Shown here one piece after another: positions 4,028 to 16,047 of a DNA stretch of 23,173 bases (positions are counted from its first letter, which is position 1; every line of letters starts with the position of its first letter). Origin of the DNA: a virus. Location: IMG/VR virus record IMGVR_UViG_3300025168_013722, positions 1 to 23,173 of that record; one strand, given 5' to 3'. A model generated the notes under the pieces. That model had not been told where the DNA came from and did not search any database. It saw only the letters and a program-made list of their open reading frames with translations. The position numbers were made by a program, and so were the translations under genes.

Positions 4028-4522
4028 TCAAAATTTAGACATATATCTTGCAATCTGTTGTACAAATGGAAGCAATAGGGCTGCCATAAACAGATTTACA
4101 CCAGTATGTACCATCGCTATTTGTTTAGTAATCCCTACAGGCATACCATCGCTCACTAACATTCCTGCTAGCCAAATAGTTCCTGTAGTTCCTATGTTTG
4201 CACCAAGTACAGCAGCAATTGCAGATGGTAAAGGCAATGCACCACTCGCTACTAATCCTATAATGGCAGTAGTTGATAGTGATGAAGATTGCCATAGAAG
4301 AGTCATTACAATTCCACCTACGAACATATAGTATGGATTGCCTAAAAAGTATTCCATATGTTCTAGCTTCCCCATACTCTTCATTCCTCCGCTGAAAAGT
4401 TTGAGTCCTATGTAAAAAATTACCAAACCAATTAGTGTCTGTATTACAGGATTATTAAATTCTGTCAAGGAGCTCCTTTTATATTTCCAATAATCGTAAA
4501 GTTGTCTATGTTTTTTCTTCAT
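4028..4522 (-). CDS. Half-length Na+/phosphate cotransporter (Na_Pi_cotrans repeat) membrane protein
   Basis: 164-aa membrane protein containing one Na/Pi-cotransporter repeat: LWQSSSLSTTAIIGLVASG at about 76-94 with the family's QSSS signature (78-81) and GANIGTT at 107-113. Hydrophobic segments lie at about 28-44, 66-92, 98-120 and 138-158. Cellular relatives (NptA, YjbB) carry two inverted repeats in one chain of 300 or more residues; here only one is present, so it may dimerise. It would sit in the inner membrane and help phosphate entry, a common limitation in the ocean. The ATG at 4522 is preferred over a TTG at 4549, because the latter adds a polar extension and lacks a ribosome site. 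Family call strong, transport activity of a half-protein inferred. Confidence 0.82.
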   Translation of the reverse strand: MKKKHRQLYDYWKYKRSSLTEFNNPVIQTLIGLVIFYIGLKLFSGGMKSMGKLEHMEYFLGNPYYMFVGGIVMTLLWQSSSLSTTAIIGLVASGALPLPSAIAAVLGANIGTTGTIWLAGMLVSDGMPVGITKQIAMVHTGVNLFMAALLLPFVQQIARYMSKF

Positions 4523-4568
4523 ACTGTATTTAGTTTTACATTTTTCCAAATATTAGAAAATCATTTCT

Positions 4569-4576
4569 TATAAATA
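4569..4576 (+). promoter_or_regulatory. T4-type late promoter box TATAAATA
   Basis: Perfect late box on the plus strand, in the divergent gap between the Na/Pi gene and the Asn cassette. If the box occupies -13 to -6, +1 falls at 4582, the first base of the hairpin at 4582-4606. Confidence 0.75.
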
Positions 4577-4581
4577 AAAAG

Positions 4582-4606
4582 AAATCTCTTTTTAAGGTAG
4601 AGATTT
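4582..4606 (+). promoter_or_regulatory. 5'-terminal hairpin of the Asn cassette mRNA
   Basis: AAATCTCT (4582-4589), 9-base loop, AGAGATTT (4599-4606), followed by four T. It looks like an intrinsic terminator, but it lies between the late box and the AGGAGG ribosome site of the gene, and its 5' arm starts at the predicted +1. A protective 5' stem-loop is therefore the better reading; partial termination or attenuation remains possible. Confidence 0.5.
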
Positions 4607-4622
4607 TTTTAGAAAGGAGGCA

Positions 4623-5501
4623 ATGTCATCCCTTATATCACCTTATGAATTTACTGAAGTAACCCGCCAACTCCGATCCTTTTTTGATGAAAAAGGATTT
4701 CAAGAAGTACATACCCAAAACAGATTATCTATACTTGCTGCTTGTGAAGATCCAACAACAGTTGCGACTTACGAGTACTCTGGACAAATCTGGCCTTTAC
4801 CTCAAACTGGTCAAATGTGGTTAGAATATGAACTACTGACAAAACCAGAATTGAAAGGGTGTTATTGTGTATCAACATCATATCGACAAGAACAGAATCC
4901 AAAAGAAGGAAGACATGAATTAATCTTCCCAATGTTTGAATTTGAGGCTCCTGGCGATTTTGAAGATTTACTTCAATTAGAAAACGATCTTTGTAAACAT
5001 CTTGGATTCAAATGTGATCATGAAAGGAATCGTTTTACTGAAAATTTCCCTGGCGGTTTTTATCAAAGTGTGCTAGCAAAATATACTGGTGTAGAATTAG
5101 ATGCCGGTCATGAAGAGGAAATGTATAAAGAATATGGAGATGTATTCTTTTTAACGCATTTTCCAGAATCAACAAGTCCTTTTTGGAACATGAAACTTGG
5201 TGAAATGGATGTGAAAAAGGAAAAGAAACTTGCTAATAAATGTGATGTTATCATGGGCGGAATGGAAACTATTGGTAGTGCGGAACGTGGTACTGATGTT
5301 GATGAAATGAAAAATCAATTCTATACTATCTCTGAAGGCGGTTATGCAGAATTATTGTTTAATCTATTCGGAAAAGATAGAGTAGAAGCAGAACTTGAAC
5401 AATTTCTTGCACACGATTTCGTTCCACGATATGGTGGTGGAATTGGTATAACTAGAATGATTAGTGCTATGAAACGTGCTAGGTTAATCGTAAATGACTG
5501 A
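4623..5501 (+). CDS. AsnA/AsnRS-like class II aminoacyl-tRNA synthetase catalytic domain without anticodon-binding domain
   Basis: 292-aa protein made only of the class II synthetase core. Motif 2 is YRQEQNPKEGRHELIFPMFE (residues 87-106, with R88, E90, R97-H98) and motif 3 is GGGIGITRM (271-279, with R278). The segment IGSAERGTDVDEMKNQFY (217-234) resembles both AsnRS (GGSxRE...) and AsnA, and EAELEQFLAHDFVPRYGGGI before motif 3 resembles AsnA (asparagine synthetase A). No N-terminal OB anticodon-binding domain exists: the catalytic core starts within 10-15 residues. Known precedents are AsnA and the archaeal AsnRS paralogue that makes asparagine. AAAGGAGG lies 2 nt before ATG. It heads the window's only plus-strand unit, ending in a tRNA with Asn anticodon. 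Asparagine synthesis and tRNA charging are both possible; the choice is inference. Confidence 0.78.
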   Translation: MSSLISPYEFTEVTRQLRSFFDEKGFQEVHTQNRLSILAACEDPTTVATYEYSGQIWPLPQTGQMWLEYELLTKPELKGCYCVSTSYRQEQNPKEGRHELIFPMFEFEAPGDFEDLLQLENDLCKHLGFKCDHERNRFTENFPGGFYQSVLAKYTGVELDAGHEEEMYKEYGDVFFLTHFPESTSPFWNMKLGEMDVKKEKKLANKCDVIMGGMETIGSAERGTDVDEMKNQFYTISEGGYAELLFNLFGKDRVEAELEQFLAHDFVPRYGGGIGITRMISAMKRARLIVND

Positions 5502-5655
5502 TGAAATAATTCCAGTTTATAAAGATGGTAAATTATTTTCAGTAAAAAGTAATAAAACAATTCCAGTTTATAAAAATGGTGCTGGTATACATGAAGTATT
5601 AGATCAATTGCATAGACAAGCAATTGAGTTGAAAAGACTAGAAGAAAAAGATTGA
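5494..5655 (+). CDS. 53-aa peptide with two IPVYK(D/N)G repeats between synthetase-like gene and tRNA
   Basis: Not in a family I recognise. The ATG overlaps the end of the synthetase-like gene (ATGACTGA), a typical coupling arrangement, and the stop is one base before the tRNA. The peptide has two copies of a short motif, IIPVYKDG (5-12) and TIPVYKNG (22-29), encoded by a near-identical 22-base direct repeat at about 5508-5529 and 5559-5580, followed by a predicted charged helix, HEVLDQLHRQAIELKRLEEK. Its position suggests a partner of the synthetase-like protein or of the tRNA, perhaps supplying an RNA contact that the trimmed synthetase lacks; this is speculation. Length and overlap make it a likely real gene. 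Confidence 0.6.
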   Translation: MTDEIIPVYKDGKLFSVKSNKTIPVYKNGAGIHEVLDQLHRQAIELKRLEEKD

Positions 5656-5656
5656 T

Positions 5657-5735
5657 TGCAGGGTGGCGAAATTGGCAAACGCATTCCGTTGTTGGCGGTC
5701 ATAAACTGAAGGTTCGATTCCTTCCCCTGCAGCCA
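5657..5735 (+). tRNA. tRNA with GUU anticodon (Asn), atypical anticodon stem
   Basis: A cloverleaf can be drawn: acceptor TGCAGGG (5657-5663) pairs with CCCTGCA (5725-5731), discriminator G (5732) and encoded CCA (5733-5735); D stem GCG/CGC (5666-5668, 5680-5682) around a loop with GG; T arm GAAGG-TTCGATT-CCTTC (5708-5724). The loop TTGTTGG (5689-5695) gives anticodon GUU for Asn, and G73 also fits Asn identity. Oddities: only three anticodon-stem pairs form (CCG/CGG), positions 27:43 and 28:42 are mismatched, the variable region is 7 nt, and the D arm looks more like a tRNA-Leu. It is transcribed with the synthetase-like gene. It could be a divergent functional tRNA or a decayed one. Confidence 0.8.
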
Positions 5736-5766: not shown

Positions 5767-6258
5767 TTAAACTGGCATCTGAAATAATGCAGTAATCCAT
5801 TTTGGTGTTTTGATTCGTGCAAACACTACCCATCCTATGTAATCAGTAGGGTTTCTCCATTGTCTTTTTATCTTAAATTCTTCCATCGAACCGCCAGTAG
5901 TAAGTACATCATCGACAATACAAATCGGGTCTTCTCTTTTTCCTGTTCCATATTGATTGAGCAAACTTCCTAATTTAGTTCCCCCTCTAGGTATTCCTAC
6001 TGCCTCTTTAAATGGTGGTGAAATCTCCATAATCATTTGACTGATAGTAAACCATTCTGGATCTGATATAGCATCACACTCAATTTTCCATTTAAGTTCT
6101 AATCCCGAATGAGATTTAAAATCTACTGATTGAAATAAATGTGTATGTCTCCCTATATTTTCGTTCATAATTGCCCCTTCTAATCTACAAGCCCATGCTA
6201 AAGACATACCAACAAAGGCTACAAATATCCAAATAATAATTTCTCTTTTATTAAACAT
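5767..6258 (-). CDS. Phosphoribosyltransferase-like protein (OPRT type) with optional N-terminal membrane segment
   Basis: 163 aa. The PRPP-binding loop is CIVDDVLTTGGS at about 112-123 (consensus VxDDVxTTGGS of orotate-type phosphoribosyltransferases), preceded by the flexible-loop/PPi region GIPRGGTKLGSLLNQY at about 88-103 and by HSGLELKWKIECDAI, found in a plasmid/phage PRT group. Residues 7-24 form a membrane segment. An internal ATG (Met31, start 6168) has the better ribosome site (GAAGGGG, 6 nt before), so a soluble 133-aa form starting there may be the main or a second product. The substrate base is unknown. The candidate structured RNA at 6268-6434 lies immediately upstream and could be its leader. 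It fits the purine/pyrimidine salvage theme of the neighbours. Confidence 0.78.
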   Translation of the reverse strand: MFNKREIIIWIFVAFVGMSLAWACRLEGAIMNENIGRHTHLFQSVDFKSHSGLELKWKIECDAISDPEWFTISQMIMEISPPFKEAVGIPRGGTKLGSLLNQYGTGKREDPICIVDDVLTTGGSMEEFKIKRQWRNPTDYIGWVVFARIKTPKWITALFQMPV

Positions 6259-7410: not shown

Positions 7411-8493
7411 TTAGTTCAACTTGCCGTTCACACCTTCAACATAGAATTGCATAGTATCAAGTTGTTGGCGTTTGATTTCACCAGCAGGAATTTTTGTTCC
7501 ATCTTGCTTAGTAACACCGGCACTAAATGGAAAGAATCTATCCATCTTGTCATTTACCCAATCCATCTTAATTGTCTCAACATGATTGACAACTGAGCCA
7601 GGTACATTGACACCCCACGGCGATAGTCCTACACAATTTTCCTGTAGTCCCCAATTTAACCGTTGGCCTGGTTTCCACGTTCCAGCTGCAACTTTGTCAA
7701 GTATGTGTTTATACATAATATTCCAATTGAACATCATACCTGTGATGTATCTATCTGGGCCATTGTGTCCCATAGGTGCATCATTACCCATACTCCACAC
7801 TTCTTTACCATCACGTTTCCACACTTGTTGTGCAAGGGCAACTACACTAGGCGAATCGGTTGTAGTGAACAGAACATCGTTGTTGTCATCAAGAAGTGCT
7901 TTGGCCGCATCCATATCTTTAGGTGGATCGAACCAACTATTAATCCACACAATATTAACTTCTGCTTTTGGATTAACTGACCTTGCACCAAGTATGAGGG
8001 CATTAATGTTACGAATGATTTCTGGAATTGGATGTGAACCAACTACACCAATCTTATTAGTTTTTGTCATCAATCCTGCAGCAACACCAGAAAGGTATCG
8101 TGCTTGATAACTCATACAACCATAGTTGTCAAAGTTAGTATCGTTGCCTTTGTAACCTGTAGCGTGCATGAAAATTGTGTCAGGATTTTTCTTTGCAGCC
8201 TTTTCCATTCCATCCATATAACCGAATGAGGTTGCAAATACAATATCGTGTTTTCGTGCAAGTTTGTTGAATATTTTTGTTGACTCTGCTTCAGGCACCA
8301 TTTCAACCATCGACACATTATAACCATGTTTTGTTAATGATTGAAATCCATCATGATGTCTCATTGACCATCCACCATCGGTGTGTGGCCCCACTAGAAC
8401 ATAACCAACTGAAGGTAATTTCTTACCAACGATACTTATACTAAAGGCTGCAAACATTGCAACCACCGCCACTAGGGCAATTAGTTTCTTCAT
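7411..8493 (-). CDS. BMP-family periplasmic substrate-binding protein (nucleoside-type ABC receptor)
   Basis: 360-aa secreted protein. Residues 1-22 (MKKLIALVAVVAMFAAFSIS) are a signal peptide without a lipobox Cys. The mature part follows the Bmp/PnrA pattern: VGYVLVGPHTDGGWSMRHHDG at its start (aromatic and GGW... pocket motif), IVFATSFGYMDG, FMHATGYKG, SYQARYLSGVAAGLMTKTNKIGVV and the later DVLFTTTDSP and SMGNDAPMG. This family binds purine nucleosides or related compounds for ABC import. No permease or ATPase is in the window, so it would have to work with host transporters. A strong GGAGAT site lies in a leader hairpin (8498-8512). An imported nucleobase source would fit the PRTs and GuaC nearby; ligand identity is inference. 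Confidence 0.88.
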   Translation of the reverse strand: MKKLIALVAVVAMFAAFSISIVGKKLPSVGYVLVGPHTDGGWSMRHHDGFQSLTKHGYNVSMVEMVPEAESTKIFNKLARKHDIVFATSFGYMDGMEKAAKKNPDTIFMHATGYKGNDTNFDNYGCMSYQARYLSGVAAGLMTKTNKIGVVGSHPIPEIIRNINALILGARSVNPKAEVNIVWINSWFDPPKDMDAAKALLDDNNDVLFTTTDSPSVVALAQQVWKRDGKEVWSMGNDAPMGHNGPDRYITGMMFNWNIMYKHILDKVAAGTWKPGQRLNWGLQENCVGLSPWGVNVPGSVVNHVETIKMDWVNDKMDRFFPFSAGVTKQDGTKIPAGEIKRQQLDTMQFYVEGVNGKLN

Positions 8494-8651: not shown

Positions 8652-9134
8652 TCAAACAGGAGCATTCCACCACAATTCATGTGGAAAATGTATCCATGTT
8701 TTAGTTGAATCTTTAGCCATTTCCTGTGCATAATAGTGAGGTTCAAATCCTTCTGGGGCCTCGTTGTTCCACCAAAGAGAACAGAATCTTATGTCACATC
8801 GGATTTCCAATGGATCTCCTTTTCTTGGCCCAGTTATATGACTAGAAATTTTTTGGAATGTTTTGCCTGAATCACAGATGTCATCAACAATGAGAACTCG
8901 TTGATCTGTTTTTTTAGGTAAGTAATCTTCCCATGTGGGAAAATCTCTCATCGATGCTCTCACAGGTTTAAAGGGGAGTTTAAACCAATGAGACATCATC
9001 ACGCCAGGAACTAAACCGCCCCTAGAAATTCCTACTATCACTTGAGGTTTGAAATTATCTAATACTATATCTCGGCAAAGAACATTAATATCTCGCCTCA
9101 TCTCATCCCATGAATACCACAACTTCTTACTCAT
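8652..9134 (-). CDS. Xanthine/guanine-type phosphoribosyltransferase
   Basis: 160-aa protein like bacterial Gpt-type PRTs in length and order of motifs: WYSWDEMRRDINVLCRDI at the start, VIVGISRGGLVPGVMMSHW at about 32-50 (the ISRGGLVPG loop of xanthine-guanine PRTs), and the PRPP loop VLIVDDICDSGKTF at about 80-93. These enzymes join PRPP to guanine, xanthine or hypoxanthine to give the nucleotide. The C-terminal part (HYYAQEMAKDSTKTWIHFPH) resembles the KPWxxFPWE tail of such enzymes. GGAAG precedes ATG by 7 nt. It stands 52 bp downstream of the HtrA-like gene and upstream of the BMP receptor; together with GuaC and ThyX it indicates phage-directed nucleotide supply. The exact base cannot be told. 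Confidence 0.85.
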   Translation of the reverse strand: MSKKLWYSWDEMRRDINVLCRDIVLDNFKPQVIVGISRGGLVPGVMMSHWFKLPFKPVRASMRDFPTWEDYLPKKTDQRVLIVDDICDSGKTFQKISSHITGPRKGDPLEIRCDIRFCSLWWNNEAPEGFEPHYYAQEMAKDSTKTWIHFPHELWWNAPV

Positions 9135-11712: not shown

Positions 11713-12693
11713 CTATACCTTTTCATACTCCATCAATTTAGTTTCAAATTCTCTTAACCGCCTAAAAACACTCATTAATTCAATAATGGTAGGCCACGCT
11801 TTTAATAGATATTGCATTGATCCTTCTACTCTACCAAATGCTCTTATTATTTGTTGCATTACACCTAGAGTCATTACTCCTACAACTATTGCTGGTGCTA
11901 GGAATACATAAGCTGATAATACGTTTGCTTGTAAGTAAGCCATTCGTCCAATATTAAAATATAGATAACGTATATAACTTAAAAAATGAATTTTACGAAC
12001 ATCATCAAAGAATTCCTCAATTTTCTTTGGTCTAACAGTTCCATCATCTTCTGCAATAACCAGTATTTTTCTATATGCTGCTTCTTTTGCTTGTATATCA
12101 TATTCTATACCAACTAAACGCAATATCCACCCCAATCCGATTAAAAAGGCAGTACCACCTAATGTCCAAAGTAATGCACCTGTAATCAATCCATATTCCC
12201 AATCACCGAAAAAGAATATTGGAATACCTATTGACAATCCAAATAATATAGGAATAAACTGAACCAAAACCATAATCGATTCAATTAAAGATGTTCCTAA
12301 ACTTTCCATTATTCGGGTAAATTTAATTGTATCTTCTTGAACCCTTTGTGATGCACCTTCTATTGTTCTGGCCTTCTCATACACACTATGATACCATTCA
12401 ACCATTGCTGTACGCCATCTAAACAAATAGTGAGCTGTAAAATAACTTATTACAACATAGAGTGCAACATATATTCCTGCTAGTGTAATAAATGATAATA
12501 GACTTGCAAAATATTCTTCTATTGTAATTGCATTTGGTGTAGCAAGTGCTTTTTGAATCATGTCATAAAATTGACCAAACCATTCATTTATTTTTACATC
12601 AATCTTTACTTGAACCCAAAGTGATCCCAAAATAATCATTGAGCCAAGCCAAGACCATAACCACCATTTTTTGTTTGTAAAAAATCTAAACAT
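11713..12693 (-). CDS. SbmA/BacA-like peptide transporter (inner membrane)
   Basis: 326-aa polytopic protein with the SbmA_BacA family signature: WRTAMVEWYHSVYEKARTIE then EGASQRVQEDTIKF (112-125), which matches the conserved region of SbmA (...IEGAAQRVQEDTMRF...), followed by LGTSLIESIMVLVQFIPIL. SbmA is a proton-driven homodimeric importer of microcins, proline-rich peptides and other cargo; BacA is its rhizobial relative. Cellular proteins are about 400 aa, so this one is shorter by roughly 80, with N-terminal and C-terminal ends reduced. Membrane segments are visible at about 12-30, 64-90, 132-155, 160-195 and 250-280. It follows three small lipoprotein genes. Cargo in infection is unknown: peptide uptake as nutrient and altered envelope permeability are both possible. 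Confidence 0.85.
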   Translation of the reverse strand: MFRFFTNKKWWLWSWLGSMIILGSLWVQVKIDVKINEWFGQFYDMIQKALATPNAITIEEYFASLLSFITLAGIYVALYVVISYFTAHYLFRWRTAMVEWYHSVYEKARTIEGASQRVQEDTIKFTRIMESLGTSLIESIMVLVQFIPILFGLSIGIPIFFFGDWEYGLITGALLWTLGGTAFLIGLGWILRLVGIEYDIQAKEAAYRKILVIAEDDGTVRPKKIEEFFDDVRKIHFLSYIRYLYFNIGRMAYLQANVLSAYVFLAPAIVVGVMTLGVMQQIIRAFGRVEGSMQYLLKAWPTIIELMSVFRRLREFETKLMEYEKV

Positions 12694-14625: not shown

Positions 14626-15076
14626 TTAAAGCCACTTCAAGATTAACTAACTGAACTTTAATAATGAGAGAACATATAAGACCAACTAATGTAGTCCACA
14701 ATGCAGTACTCATTCCTACTGCCATATCTGATAATGCATTTTGTAGAGTAATTGCATTTGATACATCAACATTTTCAAATGCCGTCCCTAGCATTATTAG
14801 AAAACCAGTAACGGTTCCTACCATTCCAAGTGCAAGACACGATTCTGAAACGAACCATCCTACATCTCCTTTTTGATTATAATCTTGTAATATTCCGACT
14901 CGATAAGTTAGCGAACCTATCCAAACAGAAGTACATCCAAAAATAATTAGTATAAGAAAACTCAACCTAGTTATATCGGATTCATATAAACTCTTATGAA
15001 CATCGAAATAAAAACAAGCACCAATTCCTAGTATGGTCATACAAAATATTAACCACCATTTTAGTACAGACTTCAT
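14618..15076 (-). CDS. MotA/TolQ/ExbB-like proton channel subunit
   Basis: 152 aa with four membrane helices at about 7-24, 38-58, 80-99 and 119-141. The last two carry the MotA_ExbB core: GMVGTVTGFLIMLGTAFENV (84-103) and LSDMAVGMSTALWTTLVGLI (115-134), including the GTVTG and the small-residue-rich helix with T-A-L-W-T-T lining the ion path in family members. It is short: the large cytoplasmic domain of MotA/TolQ between helices 2 and 3 is reduced to about 20 residues. The ATG is in TGATG with the guaC stop and its end overlaps the MotB/ExbD-like gene. Expected to form a 5:2 inner-membrane complex with it. Confidence 0.8.
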   Translation of the reverse strand: MKSVLKWWLIFCMTILGIGACFYFDVHKSLYESDITRLSFLILIIFGCTSVWIGSLTYRVGILQDYNQKGDVGWFVSESCLALGMVGTVTGFLIMLGTAFENVDVSNAITLQNALSDMAVGMSTALWTTLVGLICSLIIKVQLVNLEVALNE

Positions 15077-16047
15077 CAGTTAAAAACCTCATTAAGTTGT
15101 CGATTTACCTTCACGAAAGTTGTACATTTCGGAAGAGCTTTTAATGTTTCTGCTCCTGCGTATGTACAAGAACTTCTCAATCCTCCAAGAATTTCTTCGA
15201 TGGTATCTTCTACTCTACCACGATAAGGAACTTGGACTGCCTTTCCTTCACTAGCACGATAAGATTGTTTCTCTCCATAATATTTTATTTGTGCTTCTTT
15301 TGAAGACATTCCATAAAAAGTCATTGTATCATTTTCTATTTCACCTGAACATTCATCGTGGCCTGCAAGCATTCCACCTAACATCACAAAATCTGCACCG
15401 GCACCAAATGCCTTTGCAATATCACCAGGCACAGTACATCCACCATCGCTCATTGCGTGGCCACCTAATCCGTGAGCCGCATCTGCACATTCGATAATAC
15501 AAGAAAGTTGAGGATACCCTACACCTGTCATTTTGCGTGTGATGCAAACTGACCCTGGCCCAATTCCCAGTTTTACTATGTCGGCTCCTGCAAGAATTAT
15601 TTGTTCTGTGGCTTCGGGAGTGCAAACATTACCAGCAACTATAATTGCATTGGAATGTCTCTCCCTAACTTTATTTATGTAATTAAAGAACCTTTCGGTG
15701 TAACCATTTGCAATATCGATACATATCCATTTTGGTGTATGAAATTCTAAATCATTATCTAATCCAATCGTTCTCATTATATTTTCATTCCAACCCCATT
15801 CTGATGACTTAACAAACTTGCAAAGGGCAGTAAGTATTTTCTTTTCCATGAGAACATGACACATTGCAATCGTTCCTGTGTGATCCATATTAGAGGCAAC
15901 TATAGGAATGCCTGTCCATATGTCATCAGAATACTTAAACTTAAATTTTCTTTCCAGTACTGCATTTTTTCTGGATACTAAAGTGGAACGTTTTGGCCGA
16001 ATTAAAACATCGCCAAAATCTAATTTTATATCTTCTTCAATTCGCAT
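15076..16047 (-). CDS. guaC: GMP reductase
   Basis: 323 aa, close to Escherichia coli GuaC along the full length: MRIEEDIKLDFGDVLIRPKR at the start, VASNMDHTGT, CIDIANGYTE, VAGNVCTPE, then GADIVKLGIGPGSVCITRK with the catalytic Cys168, MTGVGYPQLSCIIECADAAH, GGHAMSDGGCTVPGDIAKAF, FVMLGGMLAGH, FYGMSSKEA and ILGGLRSSCTYAGA. It reduces GMP to IMP with NADPH in the cytosol, letting guanine nucleotides be re-used for adenine nucleotides, which suits an AT-rich genome. Lacks CBS domains, as GuaC does and IMPDH does not. AGGAG lies 6-7 nt before ATG. A strong terminator sits just upstream (16067-16103), so expression needs read-through or a nearby promoter. It heads the envelope gene run. Confidence 0.95.
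   Translation of the reverse strand: MRIEEDIKLDFGDVLIRPKRSTLVSRKNAVLERKFKFKYSDDIWTGIPIVASNMDHTGTIAMCHVLMEKKILTALCKFVKSSEWGWNENIMRTIGLDNDLEFHTPKWICIDIANGYTERFFNYINKVRERHSNAIIVAGNVCTPEATEQIILAGADIVKLGIGPGSVCITRKMTGVGYPQLSCIIECADAAHGLGGHAMSDGGCTVPGDIAKAFGAGADFVMLGGMLAGHDECSGEIENDTMTFYGMSSKEAQIKYYGEKQSYRASEGKAVQVPYRGRVEDTIEEILGGLRSSCTYAGAETLKALPKCTTFVKVNRQLNEVFN

Follow-up and report, generated by a model that had tools for sequence, protein, structure and literature searches.

An AsnRS-like phage protein with its own unusual asparagine-type tRNA, and a possible place for the pair in pyrimidine synthesis

The stretch of DNA analysed, here called the window, is 23,173 nt long (positions 1 to 23,173 of IMGVR_UViG_3300025168_013722) and is from a marine phage. 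Its plus-strand unit is real: an ORF for a protein that we call X is followed by a 53-aa ORF, ORF2, and then by a tRNA with the anticodon GUU. A preliminary description, made from the letters alone, had the peptide overlapping the enzyme and the tRNA starting one base after the peptide, and the coordinates agree. The features are as follows.

4569–4576, plus strand: T4-type late promoter motif TATAAATA, enriched 5′ of X homologues at related loci
4578–4610, plus strand: predicted leader hairpin, 12 bp and a T-run, between the promoter motif and the ribosome-binding site
4613–4620, plus strand: Shine-Dalgarno-like AAAGGAGG, from the sequence
4623–5501, plus strand: X, 292 aa, a stand-alone AsnRS-type class II catalytic core, from profiles, predicted structure and genome context
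5494–5655, plus strand: ORF2, 53 aa, with a repeated IPVYK(D/N)G motif; lineage-specific, overlapping the end of X
5657–5735, plus strand: X-linked tRNA, called tRNA-Asn(GTT) by ARAGORN, starting one base past ORF2
5767–6258, minus strand: phosphoribosyltransferase-like protein (PRTase), convergent with X and the tRNA, homologous to a PRTase beside pyrF

Taken alone, TATAAATA occurs in the window at chance level. What bears out the earlier assignment of a late promoter is its recurrence no more than 200 nt 5′ of X in 29 of 81 related loci, the expectation being 0.017 per locus. The hairpin at 4578–4610 may, to judge from its predicted fold, be a leader element of X, the folding values (−10.3 kcal/mol, z −1.6) being weak evidence. 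ORF2 matched no family in Pfam or NCBIfam; a similar peptide has the same place between X and the tRNA in some near relatives and is missing from most. Peptides with IP(I/V)YKNGxGIH lie 3′ of X in the window lineage and at loci L010, L012–L021, L042, L043 and L049, and some ORF2-like peptides run on into a zinc-finger-like C..C..H..H segment. The same phage has other genes for metabolism and transport, all on the minus strand, whose products have the domains of an IMPDH/GMP-reductase (15076–16047), a second PRTase (8652–9134), a PnrA-type (nucleoside-binding) lipoprotein (7411–8493), an SbmA/BacA transporter (11713–12693) and a Na/Pi cotransporter (4028–4549).

Protein X matches Pfam tRNA-synt_2 (E 3e-21) and PHROG 29758, a family of unknown function (E 5e-103). 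Its AlphaFold2 model (pLDDT 89.5, pTM 0.90), which covers the catalytic domain alone, has as its best PDB match by Foldseek AsnRS with Asn-AMP (1x54, E 7e-18), with AspRS next; the preliminary description was right in seeing an AsnRS-like class II synthetase core, and the best match is not to an unrelated class II protein. The conserved class II residues are present in profile alignments, with motif 2 as SYRQEQNPKEGRHE..FEFE and motif 3 as GGGIGITR, and E68 is invariant across all aligned homologues. Also as described earlier, there is no anticodon-binding domain: the N-terminal OB-fold of AsnRS is absent, and X starts at the catalytic core, its alignment setting in at about AsnRS residue 140–160. 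By profile alignment the substrate-pocket segment is QTGQMWLE in X, QSSQLYLE in AsnRS and QSPQLYKQ in AspRS (6od8), so that the Asp-binding Lys of QLYKQ is missing from QMWLE and has Leu in its stead; the asparagine synthetase A paralogue presumably retains that Lys. By such comparison fold and pocket are AsnRS-like, and X nevertheless scores far under the cut-offs of the named families, with 34.7 versus 342.6 bits for AsnRS (TIGR00457), 13.2 versus 389 bits for asparagine synthetase A, the AsnRS paralogue (NF005055), and 18.4 versus 286.9 bits for EpmA/GenX (TIGR00462). The last of these scores rules out a PoxA/EpmA-like modifier.

Is the tRNA that lies 3′ of X an ordinary tRNA-Asn? The window copy has U1-A72, G73 (5732), an encoded CCA, a Leu-type D-arm, GUU (5691–5693) and G37; it is of a subtype with a short variable region (7 nt), has a weak anticodon stem, retains all invariant bases and folds with an energy no better than that of shuffled sequences. 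The stretch 3′ of X was parsed in 86 phage loci, which yielded, with filtering for GUU, 51 distinct tRNAs; an unfiltered scan found no other anticodon directly 3′ of X. U1-A72, G73 and GUU are present in all 51, CCA is encoded in 49, and the D-arm is of the tRNA-Leu type. GUU with G73 is the Asn identity set, and U1-A72 is what GatCAB recognises (PMC9976931, PMC4206432). The variable region is from 5 to 39 nt, and at least 12 nt in 46 of the 51, so that as a group these tRNAs lack the short variable loop of class I. At position 37, where a decoding tRNA-Asn has a purine (A37), there is T in 38, C in one, A in seven and G in five, i.e., a pyrimidine in 39 of 51, the window copy being among those with G; at position 33 there is T in 47, with C in three and G in one. 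The same loci yielded 43 other distinct tRNAs, which without exception have T at position 33 and, but for one with a pyrimidine, a purine at position 37 (42 of 43). Furthermore, two of the phages with an X-linked tRNA encode an ordinary 75-nt tRNA-Asn elsewhere. The variable arm, position 37 and the separate ordinary tRNA-Asn rule out an ordinary tRNA-Asn for the class: GUU and G73 hold as described earlier, and providing translation with Asn is not supported as the main role of the pair. Charging with Leu, which the Leu-like body brings to mind, is disfavoured by G73, as the discriminator base of tRNA-Leu is A73.

Scanning IMG/VR by the tRNA sequence alone gave 113 contigs, of which 107 extend far enough upstream for evaluation, and X is upstream of the tRNA in every one of the 107, mostly with a gap of 4–10 nt. 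The linkage of enzyme and tRNA is thus conserved in relatives, as the preliminary reading required, and with the invariant bases it rules out chance or mis-annotation. The X-linked tRNA seems to be a dedicated partner of X and not an ordinary decoding tRNA. It is missing from seven phage X loci that are scattered over the tree. Phages of the same group have an odd 94-nt tRNA with a long variable arm and the anticodon TAT, called Ile (L072, 1407–1500, and L073, 6364–6457, both plus strand), and phage-borne tmRNA genes are present near X at L066 (2993–3375, plus strand), L067 and L071.

The relatives of X are in both phages and cells. In the cyanophages P-SSM7 and P-SSM5 an X homologue annotated as ‘tRNA ligase’ is directly followed by a tRNA-Asn of 85–86 nt, and ARAGORN places the same tRNA-Asn 3′ of the homologue in P-SSM2. 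Divergent X proteins without the tRNA are encoded by two huge phages, of 735 kb (L004) and 484 kb (L005); in the former, five tRNA-Leu genes are clustered. Among 84,980 species genomes scanned there were 125 relatives, with L086, L087, L095 and L100 likely to be phage contigs, and perhaps also L128 and L134. The cellular taxa are Bacteroidetes, Patescibacteria, DPANN archaea, Alphaproteobacteria, Gammaproteobacteria, Pasteurella atlantica, Myxococcota and Dependentiae, and chromosomal homologues are 50–60% identical. No X-type tRNA lies next to the cellular X genes, and none was found elsewhere in those genomes among the best 30 matches, which are ordinary long tRNAs, nearly all Leu.

The cellular genes are informative in another respect, a pyrimidine link that was absent from the preliminary description and is strong here. 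Within 2.5 kb of X there is a homologue of pyrD, pyrE, pyrF or UMPS in 26 of 74 cellular loci from several phyla, the setting sought for a dihydroorotate-forming enzyme, and among the meaningful neighbour clusters UMPS (22 loci) and DHODH (12) are seen most often. X in Pasteurella atlantica has a quinone-type pyrD, pyrF and a PRTase as neighbours, UMPS and pyrD adjoin it in Aureispira and in a Myxococcota MAG, and pyrE does so in a Patescibacterium, most patescibacterial X genes not being beside pyr genes. An argininosuccinate-lyase-like gene is directly upstream of X in four cellular loci (L108, L146, L162 and L165). Such a lyase together with an amidohydrolase, as in the patescibacterial L108, was considered as a general alternative route and rejected, the lyase being at four loci and the amidohydrolase at two. 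Near phage X genes there is PyrF at L013, L026–L029 and L031, a PyrD/DHODH-like protein at L057, L087 and L100, and a PRTase of the window type in the window itself and at L007, L012, L026–L029, L031 and L057. The window PRTase is homologous to PRTases beside pyrF at L148, L154, L155, L156 and L161 (phmmer E 6e-16 to 7e-16 with that of L148). It does not count as a proven OPRT: its Pfam Pribosyltran match is below the cut-off, and the homology is to pyrF-adjacent PRTases only.

The first three steps of de novo pyrimidine synthesis are regarded as near-universal. In 32 X-bearing genomes, over the respective cut-offs, ATCase is present in two, CarB in two and PyrC in one, i.e., they are absent from 30, 30 and 31, whereas ATCase and CarB are both found in 14 of 14 control genomes. 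OMP decarboxylase is over its cut-off in 24 of the 32, and DHODH is found in 17. As two carriers have ATCase, and four more than the one with PyrC have PyrC-like proteins under the cut-off, replacement is not uniform. Gene absence from MAGs and from streamlined Patescibacteria and DPANN, where incompleteness or auxotrophy is possible, is weak evidence one by one; it is the large genomes that carry the argument, namely Aureispira (7.4 Mb), Saprospiraceae (4.4 Mb) and the complete P. atlantica chromosome. Of 41 relatives of P. atlantica two have X, and ATCase exceeds its cut-off only in the 14 more distant ones and not in those of Pasteurellaceae type; these distributions suggest gain of X in genomes that had already lost the upstream pyrimidine steps. 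Orphan pyrDEF without X also occurs in Pasteurellaceae, and Haemophilus influenzae, of the same family as P. atlantica, is a pyrimidine auxotroph (PMC13328217). Around Aureispira there is no ATCase over the cut-off in the eight nearest genomes, and there is ATCase in 29 of 33 more distant ones.

What, then, does X do? Judged from gene content and neighbourhood it very probably acts in pyrimidine synthesis upstream of PyrD, its family standing in for the upstream enzymes and feeding dihydroorotate to PyrD/E/F. The dihydroorotate ring is equivalent to asparagine plus one carbonyl. X would bind L-Asn and form Asn-AMP in the manner of AsnRS; CO2 would then join the alpha-amine of Asn-AMP to give an N-carboxy-Asn or Asn-N-carboxyanhydride intermediate, and attack by the side-chain amide nitrogen on the CO2-derived carbonyl would close the six-membered ring and free the alpha-carboxylate. 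The net reaction would be Asn + CO2 + ATP to L-dihydroorotate + AMP + PPi. That CO2 and aminoacyl adenylates give N-carboxyanhydrides is a known reaction (PMC6462974). The proposed route has no need of carbamoyl phosphate, ATCase or DHOase, which matches the enzymes that are missing, and in phages it would circumvent CarAB and PyrB, where the pathway is regulated. To this conversion, in which substrate, product and anhydride route are all presumed, we give an even chance.

For the tRNA, the conserved Asn identity set with U1-A72, position 37 being left free, leads us to suggest that the host makes a private Asn-tRNA and that X consumes it. Charging would be by host AsnRS, or by non-discriminating AspRS with GatCAB, and X would take asparagine from this Asn-tRNA where free Asn in the host is scarce, the tRNA-bound Asn ester being as good a starting point as Asn-AMP. 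That the cellular X genomes have no X-type tRNA among their best matches, and that seven phage loci are without it, means that the basic reaction can dispense with the tRNA. A comparison of AsnB between tRNA-less and tRNA-bearing phages, which bears on the idea of Asn shortage, found an AsnB-like ORF in one tRNA-bearing phage. The role of Asn donor is put forward tentatively. A phage dihydroorotate-forming enzyme supplied with asparagine by a private non-decoding Asn-tRNA is our best explanation, with the chances for and against it about equal; its most specific form, a synthetase-derived protein making dihydroorotate in one step from Asn and CO2 and fed in phages by a dedicated, non-decoding, host-charged Asn-tRNA, is somewhat unlikely to be right in every part. 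The T4-type late promoter counts against this explanation, as that is usually an unusual place for a nucleotide-synthesis gene.

The tight one-to-one linkage invites another thought, close to the preliminary description, that X is a minimal orthogonal AsnRS which recognises its own tRNA by the acceptor stem and variable arm and charges it with Asn for decoding of AAU and AAC during infection. The AsnRS-type core with motifs 2 and 3 intact, the conserved GUU, G73 and CCA and the mostly retained U33 are all as it would have them. We nevertheless hold it unlikely: many cells have X alone, in pyrimidine clusters and with no such tRNA, position 37 is mostly a pyrimidine, two of the phages encode an ordinary tRNA-Asn as well, and GUU is strictly kept with no obvious reader, X having no anticodon domain. 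The invariance of identity elements alongside relaxed decoding features would suit a tRNA that donates no Asn and is instead a decoy titrating host AspRS, AsnRS or GatCAB, or an allosteric regulator of X. Were the tRNA a decoy, X need not accompany it in all the contigs, and the encoded CCA in 49 of 51 suggests aminoacylation, which makes this role improbable.

Other alternatives concern the chemistry of X. The preliminary description had proposed a joint role in Asn supply or Asn-tRNA formation or, alternatively, an enzyme making free asparagine like AsnA; with homologues in pyrimidine clusters of genomes without ATCase and CarB, neither supplying translation with Asn nor a simple AsnA is supported as the main role. 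Still, a stand-alone class IIb core working without an anticodon domain is what the archaeal AsnRS-related AsnA has, and there is the weak 13-bit NCBIfam match to asparagine synthetase A. An ATP-dependent asparagine synthetase with an accessory Asn tRNA is distinctly improbable given a family cut-off of 389, Leu in place of the AspRS-type pocket Lys and a strong AsnB match already in about 20 of the 32 carriers, and it leaves the pyrimidine context and the missing CarB and ATCase unexplained. Archaeal AsnA activates the beta-carboxyl of Asp, and X might do likewise with Asp, or with N-carbamoyl-Asp, joining it to urea or to its own ureido nitrogen to form the dihydroorotate ring. The same genome-context evidence favours this other pyrimidine chemistry; with a pocket segment that is AsnRS-like and not Asp-binding, and with N-carbamoyl-Asp requiring ATCase and CarB, both missing, we allow it a small chance.

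If dihydroorotate formation by X is correct, the replacement of CarAB/PyrB/PyrC by a single AsnRS-like protein would amount to a new pathway and to the recruitment of a synthetase into central metabolism, and would explain how pyrimidines are made in genomes with pyrDEF and without CarAB/PyrB/PyrC. A tRNA that phages retain only beside X, with charging and amidation identity and odd bases for decoding, would represent a novel use of tRNA, and the phages would have a tRNA-dependent pathway to a nucleotide precursor.

How does the pair compare with known systems? With AsnRS (class IIb; PDB 1x54, 8h53 and 2xti) X shares the fold, motifs 2 and 3 and the LE of the pocket segment, and in phages there is the further link of an Asn-type tRNA beside it; it differs in its lack of the OB-fold anticodon domain, in identity of only about 20% and in the pyrimidine operons of its cellular members. 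The archaeal AsnRS-related asparagine synthetase (NF005055) is likewise a class IIb core that works without an anticodon domain, but the pocket of X is not of the Asp type and its gene context is different. CarAB, PyrB and PyrC have in common with X the proposed product and a position just before PyrD; they are unrelated proteins, and one class II synthetase core would do the work of three or four enzymes. The cyanophage ‘tRNA ligase’ (T4-GC 194; P-SSM2, P-SSM5 and P-SSM7) and PHROG 29758 are of the same family as X, with 54–55% identity and the same long-armed tRNA-Asn directly 3′; their annotation is tRNA ligase or unknown function, the pyrimidine link being undescribed there. In the open-licence papers searched we found no precedent for an AsnRS-like pyrimidine enzyme, a long-arm phage tRNA-Asn or a cyanophage AsnRS, and there may be precedent elsewhere. 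The nev-tRNAs of nematodes are class II bodies with foreign anticodons, and the X-linked tRNA also has an unexpected anticodon on a class II body but, unlike them, an obligate partner gene. That partner, a Leu-like D-arm and, in most copies, a long variable arm and a pyrimidine at position 37 set it apart from bacterial tRNA-Asn, with which it shares GUU, G73 and U1-A72. It bears the bases recognised by the enzymes of tRNA-dependent Asn synthesis, non-discriminating AspRS and GatCAB (PMC9976931, PMC4206432), with the difference that here the asparagine would go to metabolism and not to translation.
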